Shown: one piece after another, positions 23,571 to 62,363 of the stretch
Layout of the letters: each line of letters starts with the position of its first letter
Numbering within the stretch: the stretch's first letter is position 1
Assembly (NCBI RefSeq): GCF_902806475.1
Contig: NZ_CADCWS010000002.1
Span: 1 to 64,000 of the forward strand
Source: Candidatus Frankia nodulisporulans
Lineage (GTDB): Bacteria > Actinomycetota > Actinomycetes > Frankiales > Frankiaceae
Direction: 5' to 3'
DNA length: 64,000 bases
Program-made: the position numbers and the translations under genes
Notes under the pieces: generated by a model
Databases searched by the model: none
What the model saw: only the letters and a program-made list of their open reading frames with translations
Told to the model about the DNA's origin: nothing

Positions 23571-23819
23571 ATGGACTGGCGCCACAGAGCGCTCTGCCGT
23601 GACGAGGATCCCGAGCTCTTCTTCCCGATCGGTACTACCGGTCCGGCGGAACGCCAGGTCGAAGAGGCAAAGGCCGTCTGCGCGCGGTGTGCAGTCACTA
23701 GTGACTGTCTGAACTGGGCAATGGACACCGGGCAGGACTCCGGAGTCTGGGGTGGACTGAGCGAGGATGAGCGCCGAGCGCTCAAGCGCCAGGTCCGCCT
23801 TCGGGTTCGGACTGCCTGA
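23571..23819 (+). CDS. whiB1: WhiB-family iron-sulfur regulator, WhiB1/WblE type
   Basis: The 82-residue product has the four WhiB cysteines at C9, C37, C40 and C46 that hold a [4Fe-4S] cluster, the GVWGG turn after them and the basic tail EDERRALKRQVRLRVRT. The start MDWRHRALCRDEDPELFFPI is characteristic of WhiB1/WblE, an essential nitric-oxide-responsive regulator that binds the housekeeping sigma factor. GAGAGGGAG lies before ATG 23571. Position next to a PdtaS-like kinase gene is as in mycobacteria, supporting orthology. Confidence 0.93.
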   Translation: MDWRHRALCRDEDPELFFPIGTTGPAERQVEEAKAVCARCAVTSDCLNWAMDTGQDSGVWGGLSEDERRALKRQVRLRVRTA

Positions 23820-54892: not shown

Positions 54893-56848
54893 GTGTCCGA
54901 CATCCCGCGGCGGGCCGTGGTCCGCACCGCGAAACTGGCCGCGCTCCCCTTGGGGATCGCCGGCCGCGCCACGATCGGCGCCGGTCGACGCTTGGGCGGT
55001 CGCCCCGCCGAGGTCGTCGCCTCTGAGCTGCAGCAACGCACCGCCGCGCAGATCTTCCGCGTGCTCGGTGAGCTCAAGGGCGGCGCGATGAAACTCGGCC
55101 AGGCGATGTCCGTCTTCGAGGCCGCGCTGCCCGACGAGGTGGCCGCGCCCTACCGGGCGGCGCTGACCAAACTGCAGGAGGCGGCCCCGCCACTCCCCAC
55201 CGCGGTGATGCGGCGGGTGCTCGAGGAGGAACTGGGCCCCGAGTGGCGGTCGCTGTTCGCCGAGTTCGACGACACGCCGGTCGCGGCGGCGAGCATCGGT
55301 CAGGTCCACCGGGCGGTGTGGGCGGACGGCCGGCCGGTCGCCGTCAAGGTGCAGTACCCGGGAGCCGGCCCCGCGCTGCTCGCCGACCTGACCCAGCTTG
55401 GTCGGGCCGCCCGCCTGTTCAGCTCGATCGTTCCCGGCCTGGACGTCAAACCCCTCATCGAGGAGCTCAAGGCCCGCGTCGCCGAGGAGCTCGACTACCG
55501 GCTGGAGGCCGCCTGGCAGGCCGCCTTCGCCGAGGCCTACGCCGGCGACCCCGACATCGCGGTCCCCCGTCCCATCGCCGGCGCCGACCGGGTGATCGTC
55601 AGCGAGTGGATCGACGGAACGCCACTGTCCACCATCATCAGCGAGGGCACCTCCGAACAGCGGGACCAGGCCGGGATGCTGCTGGTCCGGTTCCTCTACT
55701 CGTGTCCGGCCCGGGCCGGGCTGCTGCATGCCGACCCGCATCCGGGCAACTTCCGGCTGCTGGCGGACGGGCGCCTGGGCGTCCTCGACTTCGGCGCGGT
55801 CAACCGCCTGCCCGGCGGGCTGCCCGAGCCGGTGGGCCGCCTCGCCCGCCAGACACTGGCCGGGGACTCGGCGGCGGTGGCCGACGGGCTGCGCGCGGAG
55901 GGTTTCATCCCGGCGGCGGCCGAGATCGAAGCCGCGGATCTGCTCGACTATCTGGCCCCGATGCTGGCCCCGATCGCCGCGGACGAGTTCACCTTCACCC
56001 GCAGCTGGCTGCGGGGTGAGGCCACCCGGCTCGGCGACTGGCGTTCGGCCGCGGCCCAACTCGGCCGCCAGCTCAACCTCCCCCCGTCGTACCTGCTCAT
56101 CCACCGCGTGACGCTCGGCGCCATCGGTGTGCTCTGCCAGTTGGGCAGCACCGGCGACTTCCGTGCCGAGATGGCACGCTGGCAGCCCGGTTTCGCCGAG
56201 CCAGGCACGCCGGCCGCCCGCGCCGCCGCGCATGCCAACCGGCCCGACCGTCCCCTGCCCGTCCTGCGGGTCCGGGAGGAGGCGGGCGTCATCCACGCGC
56301 TCGCCGGTCCGGTCGTCCTCGGGACCCCCCGTTCCCGCCGTGGCCGGCGCCGAGCGACCCTGGCCGAGGCGCCCACGCCCCCCGCCACGGGAGAAGCCGG
56401 CGCGACCGGCACCGGGCGGGCAGCCCGGACCAGGGCGACCACCCGGTCGAAGCCCACCCCGAAACCGCGAGCCGCCCCCGCGCCGGCCGCTACCGATCCG
56501 ACGCTCCCCGAGTCGCCCGCTACCGATGGTCCGACCTCCAGCAGCAGGCCGACCGCCGCCGGCGCGCCGACGTCTGGCTCCCGACCCAAGCCGTCCTCGG
56601 CCACACGGCCCGCGGCCGGGGCGAGGTCCGCCGTCCAGCCGAAGCCGAAAGCCGCCGCCAGGTCACGACCACCCGCCCAGACGAAGATCACCGAGCAGCA
56701 CAAGGCAGGCGATCAGCCCGGCCCGGTCGATCAGCCCGGACCAGCCGACCGAACCGGCGCGGGCGACCGGGCCGAAGCGGTCGATCAGCCGACGGCCGCC
56801 AGCGAGGTCGTGCCAGCGCCCAGGGCCGACCCCGACGACGGGCGGTAG
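54893..56848 (+). CDS. ABC1/AarF (UbiB-like) atypical kinase family protein
   Basis: The 651-residue product has the ABC1 layout: the family helix [20 protein letters not shown] (KxGQ), the Ala-rich nucleotide loop [29 protein letters not shown] with the ATP Lys, [26 protein letters not shown] and VLDFGAV. Homologues support quinone synthesis or lipid homeostasis; Rv3197 is the positional counterpart. The last 190 residues are Pro/Ala/Thr/Lys-rich with repeated DQPGP-type units. GTG 54893 has GGAG five bases before it. Confidence 0.9.
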
Positions 56849-56882
56849 CTCGAGGCCGCGAGGCGACACCGGGGTGGCGAAG

Positions 56883-58550
56883 CTACTCGCCGGAGGGAAG
56901 ATCGCCGAGGTAGATGAAGCCGTAGCCTTCGTCGCGGAAGCGCACGCCGGCGGCCCGCAGGGCATCGCCCCAGTCGCCGCGGCAGTCCGGATCGGCGGCT
57001 TCCGAACCGTGGTCGGCGGTCAGCAGGAACGCGGTGTCGGCCAGCAGGCCCCGCTCGGCCAGCAGGTCGAGGAAGACACCCAGCCGTGCGTCCGCGTCCC
57101 GCAGGGCGGCCCGGGACTCGGGCGAATAGGGGCCGCCACCGTGGTGGCCGGTGTCGGTGACGGTGGTGTTCCACCACATGACGTCGGGCGGGACGGCATC
57201 CGCGGCCCACAGCTGTAGGATCTGGGTGAGGCCGAGCGCGTCGACCCGGCTGGACCACGCGTAGTCGGGATCCCGGTTCGCCCATTCGGCGTCGCTGTGC
57301 GGATCACCCTCGACGGGGGGCAGGTAGTCGCCCATGTCACCGGCGCCGCTGGCGGAACCGGCCGCGCGGACCAGGCCGAACGTCGAGTAGTGCGCGCCCC
57401 GGTCGACCGGCTCGTTCACACAGGCGGTCACCGCCGCCGGACGTGCCCGGAGCACGGCCTCGAAGAGCGTCTCGACGCCGTCGCGGAGCTGTTCACAGGC
57501 CGCGTGCCAGGTCTTCACGTCGTTGACGATCACCTGACGACCGACGGCGCGGTCGAAGTAGACGTTGTGCAGGATGCCGTGACGGCCGGGGCCTACGCCG
57601 GTGAGCGCGGAGGTGTGGTTGGTCAGCGTCACGCTGGGGAACTCGGCGATGGCACCGCCGGTCAGCGCCGTGCCTTCGGCGAGCAGCCGGGCGACGTTCG
57701 GCAGTACGCCGGTGCCGGCCAGATGCAGCAGATCGTTGCAGTTGGCGCCGTCCCACAGCAGACCGACGACGTGGCGTGCGACACCGGCGGTGACGATGTC
57801 GGTCAGCGCCGTACCCTCGGCCCCGGGCAGGCTCGCCGAGGCGAGAACGGCGAGGGTCGGGGCGATGTCGATGACCCGGGCCACGCCCTCACGCAGGCCG
57901 CGCGCACGCACACCCGCGCCGGAGAGCAGCAGGGGGGCGCGGGACTGGCCGGCGTCCAGCGAGCCGTGTTCACCGAGATGACCGCCGCGCTCCGGCCAGT
58001 AGTGGCCCGGGGTGTGCACGACGATCAGGTCGGGTGAGCGGGTGGCGTCGCCGAACGCGGACAGCAGCCGCCGGCCGGCGAACGGATAGGCGTTGCGTTC
58101 GTTCGGCGGGGACGGGTCGGCCAGGGCGTTCGCCAGGGGCACGCCGTGCAGCGGATCCTGCGAGACCAACGGGTCACGCCCGGAGCGCACCTCCCAGGGC
58201 CCGTCCGGTGTGGCGGTGGGCAGGCGGGCCGACCCGGCCGCGTTCGCGACATACAGCCATGGCGCGTCGACCCAGGCGACCAGGTCGACGACCGCGGCGA
58301 GTTCCGGCGCGGTGAGTGCGGCGACCGCCCGCCCCAGCTCGCCGGACCCGTCGGCACGGGATGCCGCGCGGTGCGCCGGGACGCCCGGGGATCGCGGCCC
58401 GACGGCACGGTCGGGTTCGGGTTCGGCGGCGAGCCCGGCGCCCGCCGCCGCGAGCGACGGCTCGGCCAGGGACGGCTCGGCCAGGGACGTCGACTCGGGG
58501 GTGGATGGGGCTCCGGTCGACAGCGGGTAGACGCGATCGCGACTGGGCAC
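56883..58550 (-). CDS. alkaline phosphatase family / nucleotide pyrophosphatase-like protein
   Basis: The 555-residue product belongs to the alkaline phosphatase superfamily: LLWDGANCNDLLHLAGTGVL and FPSVTLTNHTSALTGVGPGR with the Thr/Asn nucleophile site, TVTDTGHHGGGPYSPESRAA and LLTADHGSEA with metal-binding residues. A second, partly similar part precedes it (PDLIVVHTPGHYWPERGGHL and LLLSGAGVRARGLREGVARV), so the protein seems to contain two phosphatase-like segments, the first incomplete. The N-terminus has SLAEPSLAEPSLA repeats. It is convergent with the ABC1 gene. Substrate unknown. Confidence 0.85.
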   Translation of the reverse strand: MPSRDRVYPLSTGAPSTPESTSLAEPSLAEPSLAAAGAGLAAEPEPDRAVGPRSPGVPAHRAASRADGSGELGRAVAALTAPELAAVVDLVAWVDAPWLYVANAAGSARLPTATPDGPWEVRSGRDPLVSQDPLHGVPLANALADPSPPNERNAYPFAGRRLLSAFGDATRSPDLIVVHTPGHYWPERGGHLGEHGSLDAGQSRAPLLLSGAGVRARGLREGVARVIDIAPTLAVLASASLPGAEGTALTDIVTAGVARHVVGLLWDGANCNDLLHLAGTGVLPNVARLLAEGTALTGGAIAEFPSVTLTNHTSALTGVGPGRHGILHNVYFDRAVGRQVIVNDVKTWHAACEQLRDGVETLFEAVLRARPAAVTACVNEPVDRGAHYSTFGLVRAAGSASGAGDMGDYLPPVEGDPHSDAEWANRDPDYAWSSRVDALGLTQILQLWAADAVPPDVMWWNTTVTDTGHHGGGPYSPESRAALRDADARLGVFLDLLAERGLLADTAFLLTADHGSEAADPDCRGDWGDALRAAGVRFRDEGYGFIYLGDLPSGE

Positions 58551-58605
58551 GGGGAAACCCTATCCGGGTGCCCCCGTCAGGCGAGGAAATCCACAGCCAA
58601 CACCG

Positions 58606-58641
58606 GCGGGCGGAACACCGACTGCTCGGTGTTCCGCCCGC
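58606..58641 (-). terminator. 16-bp hairpin, distal terminator after whiB7
   Basis: GCGGGCGGAACACCGA and TCGGTGTTCCGCCCGC are perfect complements around a 4-base loop. It lies about 75 bases beyond the whiB7 stop on the minus strand, in the gap before the phosphatase gene. Confidence 0.8.
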
Positions 58642-58653
58642 ACCCAGGTGGCT

Positions 58654-58681
58654 TGGCCGCGGCCGCTGGCAGCCGCGGCCA
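58654..58681 (-). terminator. 10-bp hairpin, proximal terminator after whiB7
   Basis: TGGCCGCGGC and GCCGCGGCCA pair around 8 bases, about 35 bases after the whiB7 stop. With the hairpin at 58606 it forms a double stop. Between it and whiB7, a 15-bp copy of the end of the whiB7 gene is repeated (58683-58697 and 58708-58722). Confidence 0.65.
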
Positions 58682-58716
58682 TGTTCAGGCCGCGACCCGC
58701 CGAGACGATGGCCCGT

Positions 58717-59004
58717 TCAGGCCGCGACCTCCTCGGGGCGGACCTTGCGTGGCCGGCCGCGGGGGCGTTTGCGCGGGACGACGGTGCCGGTCACCACCAG
58801 CTCGCCACCCCACACCCCCCACGGCTCGCCCCGATCGAGGGCCGCGGTCAGGCAGGCCGCCCGGACCGGGCAGGTGTGGCAGACGGCCTTCGCGGTCTCC
58901 ACGTCCGCCGGGGACTCCGCGAAGAACATTTCGGGATCGACGTCCCAGCAGGGCAGAACGAGCCGATCCTGCTCGATCCGGGCGACGATCATGTGATCGA
59001 ACAC
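58717..59004 (-). CDS. whiB7: WhiB7/WblC antibiotic-response regulator
   Basis: WhiB7 switches on intrinsic antibiotic resistance genes through the primary sigma factor. From GTG 59004 the 95-residue product has the cluster cysteines C19, C42, C45 and C51, the GVWGG turn (63-67) and the AT-hook RPRGRPRK (80-87) that is diagnostic of WhiB7. GGAGG lies ten bases before the GTG; a longer frame up to 59067 crosses the attenuator hairpin and is rejected. It is downstream of uvrD2 on the same strand, as in mycobacteria. Promoter, leader ORF and terminator hairpin upstream form an attenuation unit. Confidence 0.93.
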   Translation of the reverse strand: MFDHMIVARIEQDRLVLPCWDVDPEMFFAESPADVETAKAVCHTCPVRAACLTAALDRGEPWGVWGGELVVTGTVVPRKRPRGRPRKVRPEEVAA

Positions 59005-59067
59005 CGGGGTGTCACCTCCGACACGGTTTGGCTTCGAGCGGATGGATGGAAGGAAGCGAAACGACAA

Positions 59068-59099
59068 AGAGCCGCGATCCCCATCGGGATCGCGGCTCT
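59068..59099 (-). terminator. attenuator hairpin in the whiB7 leader
   Basis: AGAGCCGCGATCCC and GGGATCGCGGCTCT form a perfect 14-bp stem with a 4-base loop; on the minus strand it is followed by TTTGTCGTTT. It starts 20 bases after the leader ORF stop and ends 64 bases before the whiB7 start. CCGGAG (59110-59115) and CTCCGG (59122-59127) flank the leader stop codon and could form a small competing hairpin. Confidence 0.85.
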
Positions 59100-59118
59100 C
59101 GTGTCAGCTCCGGAGCGC

Positions 59119-59526
59119 TTACTCCGGATGCGGATCGAGGACGTATCCCGATGTGAGGTGACGGTTCGTGGACAGCTGGCCAGCGGTGTTCCCGGTGACC
59201 TGGCGATGCTTCGTGAGCAGCGCAGCGGTGCCCGACAGCGGTGCGACGGGTGCCTGCTGGGCGGCGAACACAGCCGTGGCGCTCGGCCGGGCCGCGCCTG
59301 ATGTGGCCGCCAGCACCATGGGGGTGATGGACATGCCGAGAACCCGACCGCGGACACCCGCCGGCACGCCTGCATCGGCCATGCCGATGGTCGACAGGGC
59401 GGTATAGAGGGCGTGCGCGAGCGCCGGACCAGCGCCGATCTCCGTGCTCTGGAGGCAGGCCGCGGACAGCGGGCCCTGCTCACGGATGACCTCGCTGCTC
59501 ACTCTGTTCGCCAGAATGTTCACCAT
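59119..59526 (-). CDS. whiB7 leader ORF, 135 codons
   Basis: This frame starts MVNILANRVSSEVIREQGPL and ends SGYVLDPHPE with TAA just before the attenuator. The start is exceptionally good: GAGGTGAT (59540-59533 on the minus strand), a full 8-base match to the 16S 3' end, is six bases before ATG 59526. The protein is Ala/Thr/Ser-rich with no family I recognise. whiB7 leaders in other actinobacteria encode short upstream ORFs whose translation controls a terminator; this one is unusually long. It may be a sensor by being translated rather than a working protein. Confidence 0.7.
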   Translation of the reverse strand: MVNILANRVSSEVIREQGPLSAACLQSTEIGAGPALAHALYTALSTIGMADAGVPAGVRGRVLGMSITPMVLAATSGAARPSATAVFAAQQAPVAPLSGTAALLTKHRQVTGNTAGQLSTNRHLTSGYVLDPHPE

Positions 59527-59600
59527 TGCGAGATCACCTCGATTCTCCGGAGGGCCGGTGGCGCATGGCAGCCAGTCGGCGTCTGTGGGGCGTCGGTGTA

Positions 59601-59637
59601 ACCGTAGAAGGCCTTCGCGAGAACCTCAACGTATTTT
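59601..59637 (-). promoter_or_regulatory. candidate WhiB7-dependent promoter
   Basis: On the minus strand TTGAGG (59629-59624) and TACGGT (59606-59601) are 17 bases apart, and AAAATAC (59637-59631) lies directly upstream of the -35 element. An AT-rich block abutting the -35 is the known mark of WhiB7-activated promoters, bound by its AT-hook. The leader ORF begins about 75 bases downstream. Confidence 0.7.
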
Positions 59638-59683
59638 CTGTGTCGCGAGTATGACACGTTGCGTCACAAGGGTGGAGCCGTGC

Positions 59684-62029
59684 TCACGGCGTGGCGCGGT
59701 CGGCCACCAGGGCGAGCACCGCCGTGCCGTACCGGTCGAGCTTGGCCTGGCCGATCCCGGGGATCCGGACCAGTTCGGCGACCGTGCCGGGTCGGCATTC
59801 GGCGATCGCACGCAGGGTCGCGTCGGTGAGGATGACGAACACCGGCATGCGGGCCTCCTTCGCGGTGGCGGCCCGCCAGACCCGCAGGCGTTCGTACAGC
59901 GCGGCGTCCACGTCACCGGGGCACTGGGCGCACCGTCCGACCCGCGCCGACGCACCGGTCAGCGACTGACCGCAGACCCGGCAGCGCACCGCGGAACGCC
60001 CCCTGGTCCGGGTCCGAGCCGCGTCCCCGGGTCCCCCGGAGCCGGGCGCCCCGCCCGTCCCGTCCGATCCCGGCGACCGCTCCGCAGCCGGGTCAGTCGA
60101 GGCGTCCCGTCCGGTGGCTCCGCCGCCGCCCCGGGAACCACTCGAGCCAGCGGCACCACCGAAGCCACCGGTACCACCGGAGCCACGGCGTGCGGGGCGT
60201 AGCTCGTCCAGGAAACGGGATGGGCGGCGGACCCGGCTGGCTCCCTGGGTGCGCGCCAGCGACCATGACAGGACCAGCTGGGTGCGGGCACGGGTGATCC
60301 CGACGTAGAGCAGCCGGCGCTCCTCCTCGACCTGCTCGGTGGAGCGGGCGTGCACCAGCGGCAGGGTGCCCTCGGTGAGGCCGACGAGGAAGACCGCGTC
60401 CCATTCGAGGCCCTTCGCGGCGTGCAGGGTGGACAGCGTCACCCCCTCGACGGTCGGCAGATGCTCGTGGGTGTCGCGATCGGCGAGTTCGGCGACGAAC
60501 TCGCCGAGACCGGCGGCGGGATCGCGGGCCGCGAGATCCTCGGCGAGTCGGTGCAGCGCGGCGAGGTTCTCCCAGCGCTCCCGTTCGGCGCCGGTGCCGA
60601 CGGCGGCGGTGCCGACGGCGGCGGTGTGCGGGTACCACTGCAGCGCACCGAGGACGTCCGCCACCGCGTCGGCGAGGCCGAGCGGACGGTCGAGGTCGGC
60701 GGAGCGGACGGCGGCCCGCAGCAGCCCGGTCGCCTTGCGGACCTCCGGCCGGGCGAAGAACTTCTCCCCGCCGCGCAGCAGACAGGCGATGCCGGCCGCG
60801 CCGAGGGCCGACTCGTAGGCCTCCGACTGCGCGTTCGTCCGGTACAGCACGGCGATCTGGCTGGCCGGCAGGCCACGGGCGAGCAGGGTCCGGATGCGGC
60901 TGGTGACGGCGGTGGCCTCGTCGGCCTCCGTGTCGCACTCGAGCCACACCGGCGCGGGCCCGGCGGGCGCGGCGGCGACGAGCGCGGCCCGGGGCCCCGC
61001 CCCCACCAGCCGGTTGGCCAGGGCCACCACCTGGGGTGTCGACCGGTAGTCGCGCACCAGCCGGACCACCGTCGCCTGCGGATGACGGCGGGGGAACTCG
61101 AGCAGGTAACGCGGTGAGGCCCCGGCGAACGAGTAGATCGTCTGATGGGGATCGCCGACGACGCACAGGCTGTCGCGGTCACCGAGCCAGGCGTCGAGCA
61201 CCCGCTGCTGGAGCATGTTGACGTCCTGGTACTCGTCGACGACGAAGTGCCGGTAGCGGGAGCGGATCTCGCCCGCGACGAAGCCGTGCTCCTCGATCAT
61301 GGCGGCGGTGAGCAGCAGCAGATCCTCGAGGTCGAGAATGCCGGCCTCCCGTTTGGTCTCCTCGTAGGCGCCGTAGAGCCGACCGATCGTCGCGGCGGTC
61401 ATCGTCGTCTCGCGGCCCGCCGCCGCGGCCAGGCGCGCGTAGTCCTCCGGGGTGACGAGCGAGACCTTGGCCCATTCGACCTCGGCGGTCAGGTCGCGCA
61501 GTTCCGTGCGGTCGGTGCGCAGGCCCAGCCGGGCCGCGGCCCGGGCCATCGTCGGGATCTTGCTCGACTCGAGCCTGGGCAGCGGACCGCCGGCCACCGT
61601 CGGCCAGAAGTACTGCAACTGGCGCAGTGCGGACGAATGGAACGTCCGCGCCTGCACCCCCGGCACACCCATCGCCCGCAGCCGGCCGCGCAGCTCACCG
61701 GCGGCCCGGGTGGTGAAGCTGACCGCGAGGATCTGATCGGGCGCAACCCCGCGATCCGCGACCATGTGCGCGATTCTGTGGGTGATCGTGCGCGTCTTGC
61801 CCGTACCGGCCCCGGCCAGGATGCAGACCGGGCCGAGCGGGGCGGCCGCGGCGGCCCGCTGCTCCGGATCCAGCGCGGCCAGCAGATCGTGGCCGGCGGC
61901 CGGGCCCGCCGCGCCGATCTCACGGGACGCGGCGACGGGCGTCGCACCGGGTGGGCCGGCGGGGGCGGCGGCGGCTGGCGCCCCGGGCGCGGCGGTGGGC
62001 GCGGGCGGCGGAGCGGTGGGTCCGGACAT
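59684..62029 (-). CDS. uvrD2: ATP-dependent DNA helicase UvrD2
   Basis: The 781-residue product is an SF1A helicase: Walker A CILAGAGTGKTRTITHRIAH, FTTRAAGELRGRL, RHFVVDEYQDVNMLQQRVLD (motif II), GDPHQTIYSFAGAS (III), RDYRSTPQVVALANRL (IV), LSTLHAAKGLEWDAVFLVGL (V) and RRLLYVGITRARTQLVLSWS (VI). A tetracysteine CRVC-x16-CAQC precedes a C-terminal HRDC domain (RLRVWRAATAKEARMPVFVI, RIPGIGQAKLDRYG), the UvrD2 signature. ATG 62029 is used; the first 45 residues are Ala/Pro-rich. It is divergent from mrx1. Confidence 0.94.
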   Translation of the reverse strand: MSGPTAPPPAPTAAPGAPAAAAPAGPPGATPVAASREIGAAGPAAGHDLLAALDPEQRAAAAAPLGPVCILAGAGTGKTRTITHRIAHMVADRGVAPDQILAVSFTTRAAGELRGRLRAMGVPGVQARTFHSSALRQLQYFWPTVAGGPLPRLESSKIPTMARAAARLGLRTDRTELRDLTAEVEWAKVSLVTPEDYARLAAAAGRETTMTAATIGRLYGAYEETKREAGILDLEDLLLLTAAMIEEHGFVAGEIRSRYRHFVVDEYQDVNMLQQRVLDAWLGDRDSLCVVGDPHQTIYSFAGASPRYLLEFPRRHPQATVVRLVRDYRSTPQVVALANRLVGAGPRAALVAAAPAGPAPVWLECDTEADEATAVTSRIRTLLARGLPASQIAVLYRTNAQSEAYESALGAAGIACLLRGGEKFFARPEVRKATGLLRAAVRSADLDRPLGLADAVADVLGALQWYPHTAAVGTAAVGTGAERERWENLAALHRLAEDLAARDPAAGLGEFVAELADRDTHEHLPTVEGVTLSTLHAAKGLEWDAVFLVGLTEGTLPLVHARSTEQVEEERRLLYVGITRARTQLVLSWSLARTQGASRVRRPSRFLDELRPARRGSGGTGGFGGAAGSSGSRGGGGATGRDASTDPAAERSPGSDGTGGAPGSGGPGDAARTRTRGRSAVRCRVCGQSLTGASARVGRCAQCPGDVDAALYERLRVWRAATAKEARMPVFVILTDATLRAIAECRPGTVAELVRIPGIGQAKLDRYGTAVLALVADRATP

Positions 62030-62058
62030 CCCTCGACACGGTAGTACCGGTCTGGCGC

Positions 62059-62085
62059 GGGAAGGGACGGCGCCGCCACACTGTT
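62059..62085 (+). promoter_or_regulatory. SigR-like promoter before mrx1
   Basis: GGGAAG (62059-62064) and GTT (62083-62085) are separated by exactly 18 bases, 38 bases before the mrx1 start. The last -35 base differs from the GGAAT consensus. A thiol-stress promoter would suit a mycoredoxin gene. Confidence 0.5.
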
Positions 62086-62123
62086 GGAGCATCTGTTGTG
62101 TCCCAGTGACTTGGAGGCCATTC

Positions 62124-62363
62124 GTGCTCACGATCTACACGACTTCCTGGTGCGGCTACTGCGTTCGACTGAAGAGCCAACTGGACCGCGCCGGCGTGGA
62201 GTACAAGACCGTGGATATCGAGAACGACCCGACAGCAGAGCAACGTGTCCGCGATGCGAACAACGGGAACGCGACCGTGCCGACTGTGCTCTTTCCCGAT
62301 GGCACTGTGATGACGAACCCGAGCATCCGCCAGGTCACCGAGAAGGTCACTTCTGCCGCATAA
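62124..62363 (+). CDS. mrx1: mycoredoxin (glutaredoxin-like)
   Basis: Mycoredoxin reduces mixed disulfides of proteins with mycothiol. The 79-residue product LTIYTTSWCGYCVRLKSQLD has the redox motif C10-G-Y-C13, then VDIENDPTAEQRV, NATVPTVLFPDGTVMTNPS with the cis-Pro TVP, a complete small thioredoxin fold. GTG 62124 has GGAGG six bases upstream. Divergent position from uvrD2 matches Rv3198A. Confidence 0.92.
   Translation: MLTIYTTSWCGYCVRLKSQLDRAGVEYKTVDIENDPTAEQRVRDANNGNATVPTVLFPDGTVMTNPSIRQVTEKVTSAA

Follow-up and report, generated by a model that had tools for sequence, protein, structure and literature searches.

The stretch of DNA analyzed here (the window) comprises 64,000 nucleotides, and the locus under study is read from its minus strand. 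There, a GAAAAT motif (59633–59638) precedes by 3 nt (ACG) a promoter of the form TTGAGG-N17-TACGGT (59601–59629; -35 element at 59629–59624, -10 element at 59606–59601), whose position would place the transcription start near 59594. They are followed by a Shine–Dalgarno (SD) sequence GAGGTGAT (59533–59540); an upstream open reading frame (uORF) of 135 codons (59119–59526), with ATG at 59526 and TAA at 59121–59119, taken from the ORF list and backed by its indels and composition; an intrinsic terminator (59068–59099), 19 nt beyond the uORF stop; a second SD (GGAGGTGAC, 59011–59019, with GGAGG at 59019–59015); and whiB7 (58717–59004), with a GTG start at 59004 and its stop at 58717. In folding calculations, the terminator is a perfect 14-bp stem (59099–59086 with 59081–59068) closed by the tetraloop GATG (−30.7 kcal/mol, z −7.9), and it is followed by a T-rich tail up to about 59058. 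Every element of the order claimed in the first-pass annotation, from promoter to whiB7, is therefore present. One element has to be read differently: the AT-rich block described as AAAATAC touching the -35 element does exist, but it is better understood as the published WblC site, with consensus GAAAWY and located 3 nt upstream of -35 (PMC7157823, Fig. 8). The combined pattern of box and promoter occurs once in the window, in none of 100 shuffles of it, and only once in the whole 4.87-Mb assembly. An Rfam scan of the region returned no relevant family.

The whiB7 product (95 aa) contains a WhiB domain (Pfam PF02467, E 3e-17), the GVWGG motif and a C-terminal AT-hook, RGRPRK. Its best match among solved structures is M. 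tuberculosis WhiB7 (7kif, E 1.5e-27). Elsewhere in the window, a second WhiB-family ORF (23592–23759, plus strand) shows 55% identity to the WhiB7 domain (E 7.5e-10).

A WhiB7 orthologue was found in all 13 genomes of the genus Frankia and in 34 of the 35 family genomes searched, and the order promoter-uORF-terminator was found in the same 13 Frankia genomes. Promoter, SD-bearing uORF and terminator were located in 32 Frankiaceae leaders; every one of them has an SD match of 5 nt or more ahead of the chosen uORF start, as well as an equivalent terminator hairpin, while a promoter of equivalent type lies upstream of whiB7 in most of the loci examined. The layout is common to other genera (Nocardia, Mycobacterium, Blastococcus, Nocardioides and more), in which the terminator is mostly found 15–31 nt past the uORF stop. 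For a class-wide set, 118 loci were added, of which 78 could be oriented by means of the WhiB7 motif used; an automatic caller, whose uORF calls matched 73 of the 75 made earlier, recognized the complete unit at 173 of the 183 oriented loci from actinobacteria. The proposal of an attenuation unit for whiB7 under a WhiB7-type promoter is thus supported, and the unit is conserved across the genus and the class.

The length of the uORF is another matter, as it ranges over 91–169 codons in the genus Frankia and 53–198 in the wider family, compared to 91–125 in Nocardia and 34–68 in Mycobacterium. So, the remark that this leader is far longer than those remembered holds against mycobacteria, but not against Frankia or Nocardia. 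The comparison across Frankia genomes that had been suggested showed conservation of the frame, of the stop-to-hairpin spacing and of the hairpin itself, while uORF length varied widely. A natural variant of the stop position occurs in two Pseudofrankia-type loci (L048 and L049), where the uORF stop comes some 17 nt sooner than it does in sister genomes and precedes the upper part of the predicted antiterminator described below.

The selection acting on the uORF was analyzed in nine disjoint Frankiaceae pairs. All 18 uORF indels were in frame, versus 2 of 13 in the flanking UTR (Fisher p 9e-7). Outside the family (six Nocardia, five Mycobacterium and two Geodermatophilaceae pairs), 12 of 12 uORF indels were in frame, versus 7 of 39 in the flanks. 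As intact ORFs had been chosen, the absence of stop codons was left out as evidence. High-GC DNA yields many spurious ORFs, and one could think of the uORF as a chance open frame and of the hairpin as the ordinary 3′ end of another transcript; however, with frame, start, SD, stop-to-hairpin spacing and hairpin conserved across genera, and with every Frankiaceae indel in frame, the probability of this explanation is practically negligible.

Concerning substitutions in the Frankiaceae pairs, the middle of the uORF gave an omega of 0.85 (0.70–1.04), versus 0.11 (0.07–0.17) for whiB7. Codons 2–20 gave a pooled omega of 0.51 (0.28–0.93), such that the peptide is moderately conserved over the first 20 codons (59467–59526). 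In other groups the middle of the uORF gave values of 0.65 (Nocardia), 0.51 (Mycobacterium) and 1.01 (Geodermatophilaceae). At the other end, synonymous change in the last 20 codons of the Frankiaceae uORFs was about four-fold lower than in the middle (0.054 vs. 0.216). Together with the indels, the synonymous versus nonsynonymous comparison proposed in the first-pass annotation revealed a constraint on the frame and none to speak of on the peptide, as purifying selection on the amino-acid sequence was seen only in the first 20 codons or so. The frame of the uORF is under selection, its middle peptide hardly is, and its 3′ end is constrained as RNA.

These data bear on the suggestion that a small stable protein, having a function of its own and co-expressed with whiB7, is the product of the uORF. 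The strong SD and start, the protein-like composition by codon position, the strictly kept frame and the purifying selection on the N-terminal codons would all suit such a protein. They have to be set against a middle section whose omega has an upper bound above 1, a length that varies from 53 to 198 codons within one family, and the lack of any domain or structure match of the peptide in Pfam, NCBIfam or PDB. Moreover, a genus-wide homology search with the window peptide gave a match in just one other species, although every genome has a uORF. A stable protein is accordingly held to be very improbable; the uORF is probably a track for ribosomes, and a functional protein is unlikely. It follows for annotators that such leader ORFs should not be taken for genes of unknown function.

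The constraint on the 3′ end was considered by folding the leader RNA as it would be before the 3′ arm of the terminator exists. Under this condition, the 5′ arm paired mostly with the 3′ codons of the uORF, leaving the stop codon at or near the tip of the hairpin. In general terms, the last 14 or so uORF codons and the terminator 5′ arm are predicted to form an antiterminator whose tip holds the stop codon; in the window, the predicted element runs from 59153 to 59082, takes in the last 11 or so codons, has the stop codon at its apical loop, and folds with −38.9 kcal/mol (z −5.6). RNAalifold, applied to a sequence-based alignment of the 32 leaders, returned no more than 6 pairs and did not produce a consensus antiterminator, after which single-sequence folds were used with synonymous-codon nulls in which shuffling was confined to the last 20 uORF codons. 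Pairing of the 5′ arm was above the mean of the shuffles in 32 of 32 Frankiaceae (average 0.69 vs. 0.45) and in 19 of the 21 loci taken from other genera, figures to be read as those of related sequences of which a few reached p < 0.05 and most were not significant singly. In at least one relative (L006) the antiterminator was not the minimum-energy fold of a longer segment. As read from the alignment, the pairing segments differ by genus, being for example GGGATC/GATCCC in Frankia and GGGGTCCG/CGGACCCC in Pseudofrankia, a difference that looks compensatory.

When both terminator arms are present, equilibrium folding prefers the terminator, so that antitermination must win kinetically. The model published for whiB7/wblC attenuation is found in PMC10727445, PMC9618640, PMC13393426 and PMC11550727, citing Lee 2022; according to PMC10727445 and PMC9618640, translation of the uORF favors the terminator, while stalling lets the antiterminator form. 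The statement in the first-pass annotation that the uORF overrides the terminator when ribosomes are inhibited was right as to attenuation by a uORF but inexact as to direction, since according to those papers it is translation that favors the terminator and stalling that frees the antiterminator, with which the predicted folds fit. By analogy with the published work, the same direction of switching would be expected in Frankia.

Another feature of the uORF 3′ region appeared in the genus Frankia. The codons CGT CAC CTC (RHL, 59155–59163) are a candidate for an element sequestering the whiB7 SD: GTCACCTC, within these positions, is complementary to that SD, and the uORF codons CGTCACCTC are the exact 8-nt complement of the region 59011–59018. 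The series CGT CAC (C/T)TC, located 11–15 codons before the uORF stop, is found in 13 of 13 genomes of the genus, CGT being a rare choice for arginine (9.8% of Arg codons in the plausible genes of the window). Pairing with the SD was predicted in 12 of the 13, with values of 0.69–1.00, and it exceeded the synonymous null in each of the eight genomes put to that test. These codons may tie translation of whiB7 to ribosomes that are still finishing the uORF. A control in two layers could be envisaged from this, in which CGTCACCTC sequesters the SD besides the attenuation, and translation of the read-through mRNA depends on ribosomes still arriving at the end of the uORF. Exact complementarity and the persistence of CGT CAC despite the rarity of the Arg codon speak for it. 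On the other hand, the pairing comes from equilibrium folding only, the conservation could reflect a peptide constraint or another RNA constraint at the C-terminus, and the feature is not consistently shared by Parafrankia or Pseudofrankia; this second layer is therefore put forward tentatively, as a possibility with the balance of probability against it. SD sequestration as a general feature of these leaders was discarded, since it was limited to the genus Frankia and not consistent in the sister genera.

The question of what a near-neutral but strictly framed track could sense was approached through its amino-acid content. Enrichment in a single regulating amino acid was not found, as the composition resembles that of ordinary proteins. 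In particular, the idea of an alanine sensor, derived from mycobacterial uORFs (27.7% Ala), found no support in Frankia, with Ala at 18.1% versus 14.6–17.3% in proteins of the window. It may be mentioned that the mycobacterial whiB7 uORFs (L090, L097, L099 and others), besides being rich in Ala, are devoid of Cys in 8 of 8 representatives, unlike the near-complete uORFs of Frankia and Nocardia.

Breadth of content gave a different result. In a test set of 90 non-redundant uORFs (50–198 codons), all 20 amino acids occurred in 37, versus 12.5 expected from the pooled composition (the largest of 2000 simulations being 24), and the mean number of amino-acid types per uORF was 18.91 versus 17.88 expected (z 8.2). 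It should be borne in mind that the idea of a panel arose from the Frankiaceae uORFs, which are included in the larger set, so the data are partly shared; in addition, the z and p values for the panel are nominal, as several sets, thresholds and tests were tried. The excess was absent from the five other reading frames of the same uORFs (z −2.7 to +1.5), from the end of the neighboring upstream gene in 86 of these loci (z −2.4, with 4 complete sets versus 35 in their uORFs) and from WhiB7 (z 1.0). It persisted when both uORF ends were held fixed (z 8.7). Under stricter redundancy cut-offs, it gave z values of 6.4, 4.2 and 3.2 for 50, 15 and 7 sequences, respectively, although the count of uORFs with all 20 was not raised in the two smallest sets. 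Cys, Tyr and Trp were present exactly once in 62, 69 and 53% of the uORFs, respectively, where the Poisson maximum is 37%.

Since short uORFs can also be complete, as shown by one of 61 codons that contains all 20 amino acids (L184), coverage does not require length. The number of distinct codons was not enriched (36.93 vs. 36.87), which places the signal at the level of amino acids, and a panel at the codon level (tRNA isoacceptors) was rejected for this lack of excess. When the uORF of the window species was aligned with that of its nearest relative, the single Cys was found at non-homologous positions in the two, and so was the single Lys. Compensation after the loss of an amino acid was modest (133 of 169 vs. 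119 expected, z 2.5), and singleton residues were not more conserved overall (p 0.10), with Cys, Trp and Tyr higher and Lys and His lower. Many uORFs still miss an amino acid, such as Cys in Mycobacterium or Trp in the window, whose uORF contains 19 of the 20 and is unremarkable alone.

It could be argued from part of these results that the locus is an ordinary attenuator, with a uORF whose length and composition mean nothing beyond staying open, and with coverage as a by-product. Wide variation in length, near-neutral change, flat synonymous codon coverage and the weakness of the compensation and singleton tests are as such an interpretation would have them. What it does not account for is an excess that is strong, confined to the translated frame, seen neither in the adjacent gene nor in WhiB7, and resistant to fixing the ends and to strict redundancy filtering; a mere by-product is thus a possible explanation, but an unlikely one. 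The interpretation preferred here, and considered very likely to be right, is that the locus represents, in Frankia, the whiB7/wblC attenuator of actinobacteria, with a uORF that serves as a ribosome track tending to hold nearly every amino acid. The suggestion of a long sensor, made in the first-pass annotation, is in this way partly upheld, with the evidence pointing to breadth of amino acids.

A mechanism can be proposed in which the WhiB7-activated promoter would give rise to a leader RNA whose uORF has to be translated to its end. A ribosome that keeps up and reaches the stop would cover or disrupt the uORF 3′ end, so the terminator arms would pair and transcription would stop. If no ribosome is there, or if it lags behind or has stalled, the uORF 3′ end would fold round the stop codon and capture the terminator 5′ arm as it emerges; the antiterminator so formed would allow read-through into whiB7, and WhiB7 would amplify its own promoter. 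With nearly every amino acid represented in the uORF, the switch could be set off by a ribosome that has slowed down or by a lack of any one charged tRNA. The leader would then work as a completion test, in which the ribosome must have crossed a track sampling all amino acids by the time RNA polymerase gets past the terminator. Many drugs, and also amino-acid starvation, have been reported to induce whiB7/wblC (PMC12121999, PMC11550727, PMC10727445), and a completion test seems the simplest reading of these reports together with the coverage statistics. According to PMC12121999, no test had been made of whether ribosomes stall in the uORF of whiB7. The broader proposal, that whiB7 uORFs across the Actinobacteria are amino-acid pangrams, i.e., drifting but translatable frames that hold at least one codon per amino acid and let one switch report any aminoacyl-tRNA shortage as well as ribosome-targeting drugs, seems to us about equally likely to prove right or wrong.

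The Frankia locus shares with the whiB7/wblC attenuators of Mycobacterium and Streptomyces, as described in PMC10727445 and PMC11550727 (citing Lee 2022, Mol Microbiol) and in PMC4128351 (Dinan 2014), a WhiB7-box promoter, an SD-bearing uORF, a Rho-independent terminator just after it, whiB7 downstream, and a predicted antiterminator made of the uORF 3′ end and the terminator 5′ arm. It differs from the mycobacterial ones in a uORF about two to three times longer and not clearly enriched in alanine, and from the known ones in the apparent SD-sequestering element of the genus Frankia. As in the leader-peptide attenuators of trp, his and ilv, the position of the ribosome in the leader ORF would decide between terminator and antiterminator; however, in those leaders the codons of a single amino acid, or of a few, are repeated, while whiB7 uORFs tend to have the rare amino acids about once each and nearly all amino acids represented. 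Similarly, toiL of E. coli topAI (PMC12121999) and the erm leaders sense several ribosome-targeting drugs through uORF translation, but they are short uORFs with stalling at defined codons, whereas the whiB7 uORF studied here has no evident stall site of a specific kind, and its middle drifts.

The class of attenuator is already known; what is possibly new is a class-wide property of its leader ORF, namely a kept frame, a free peptide and breadth of amino acids. In the literature searched, whose scope did not extend to the original mechanism paper (Lee 2022), no description was found of near-neutral uORF evolution with a kept frame together with coverage of all amino acids, and to our knowledge no panel of all 20 has been described there for an attenuator. 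In mycobacteria and streptomycetes, intrinsic drug resistance is under the control of WhiB7, and the puzzle has been how one leader can sense many drugs and stresses. A uORF constrained as a frame and in its amino-acid breadth, not as a protein, offers a directly testable answer, namely that what is counted is translation completed over a panel comprising all amino acids.

As to the neighborhood of whiB7 in the window (54893–62363), a UvrD-type helicase with an HRDC domain is encoded upstream (59684–62131). Near whiB7 there is also an ABC1 kinase (54893–56848) related to the macrolide-binding ATPase MABP-1, a match that falls below the NCBIfam cut-off, and a glutaredoxin-like ORF is located near 62090–62363 on the plus strand. 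The gene order presumably resembles that of Rv3197–Rv3198A in M. tuberculosis.
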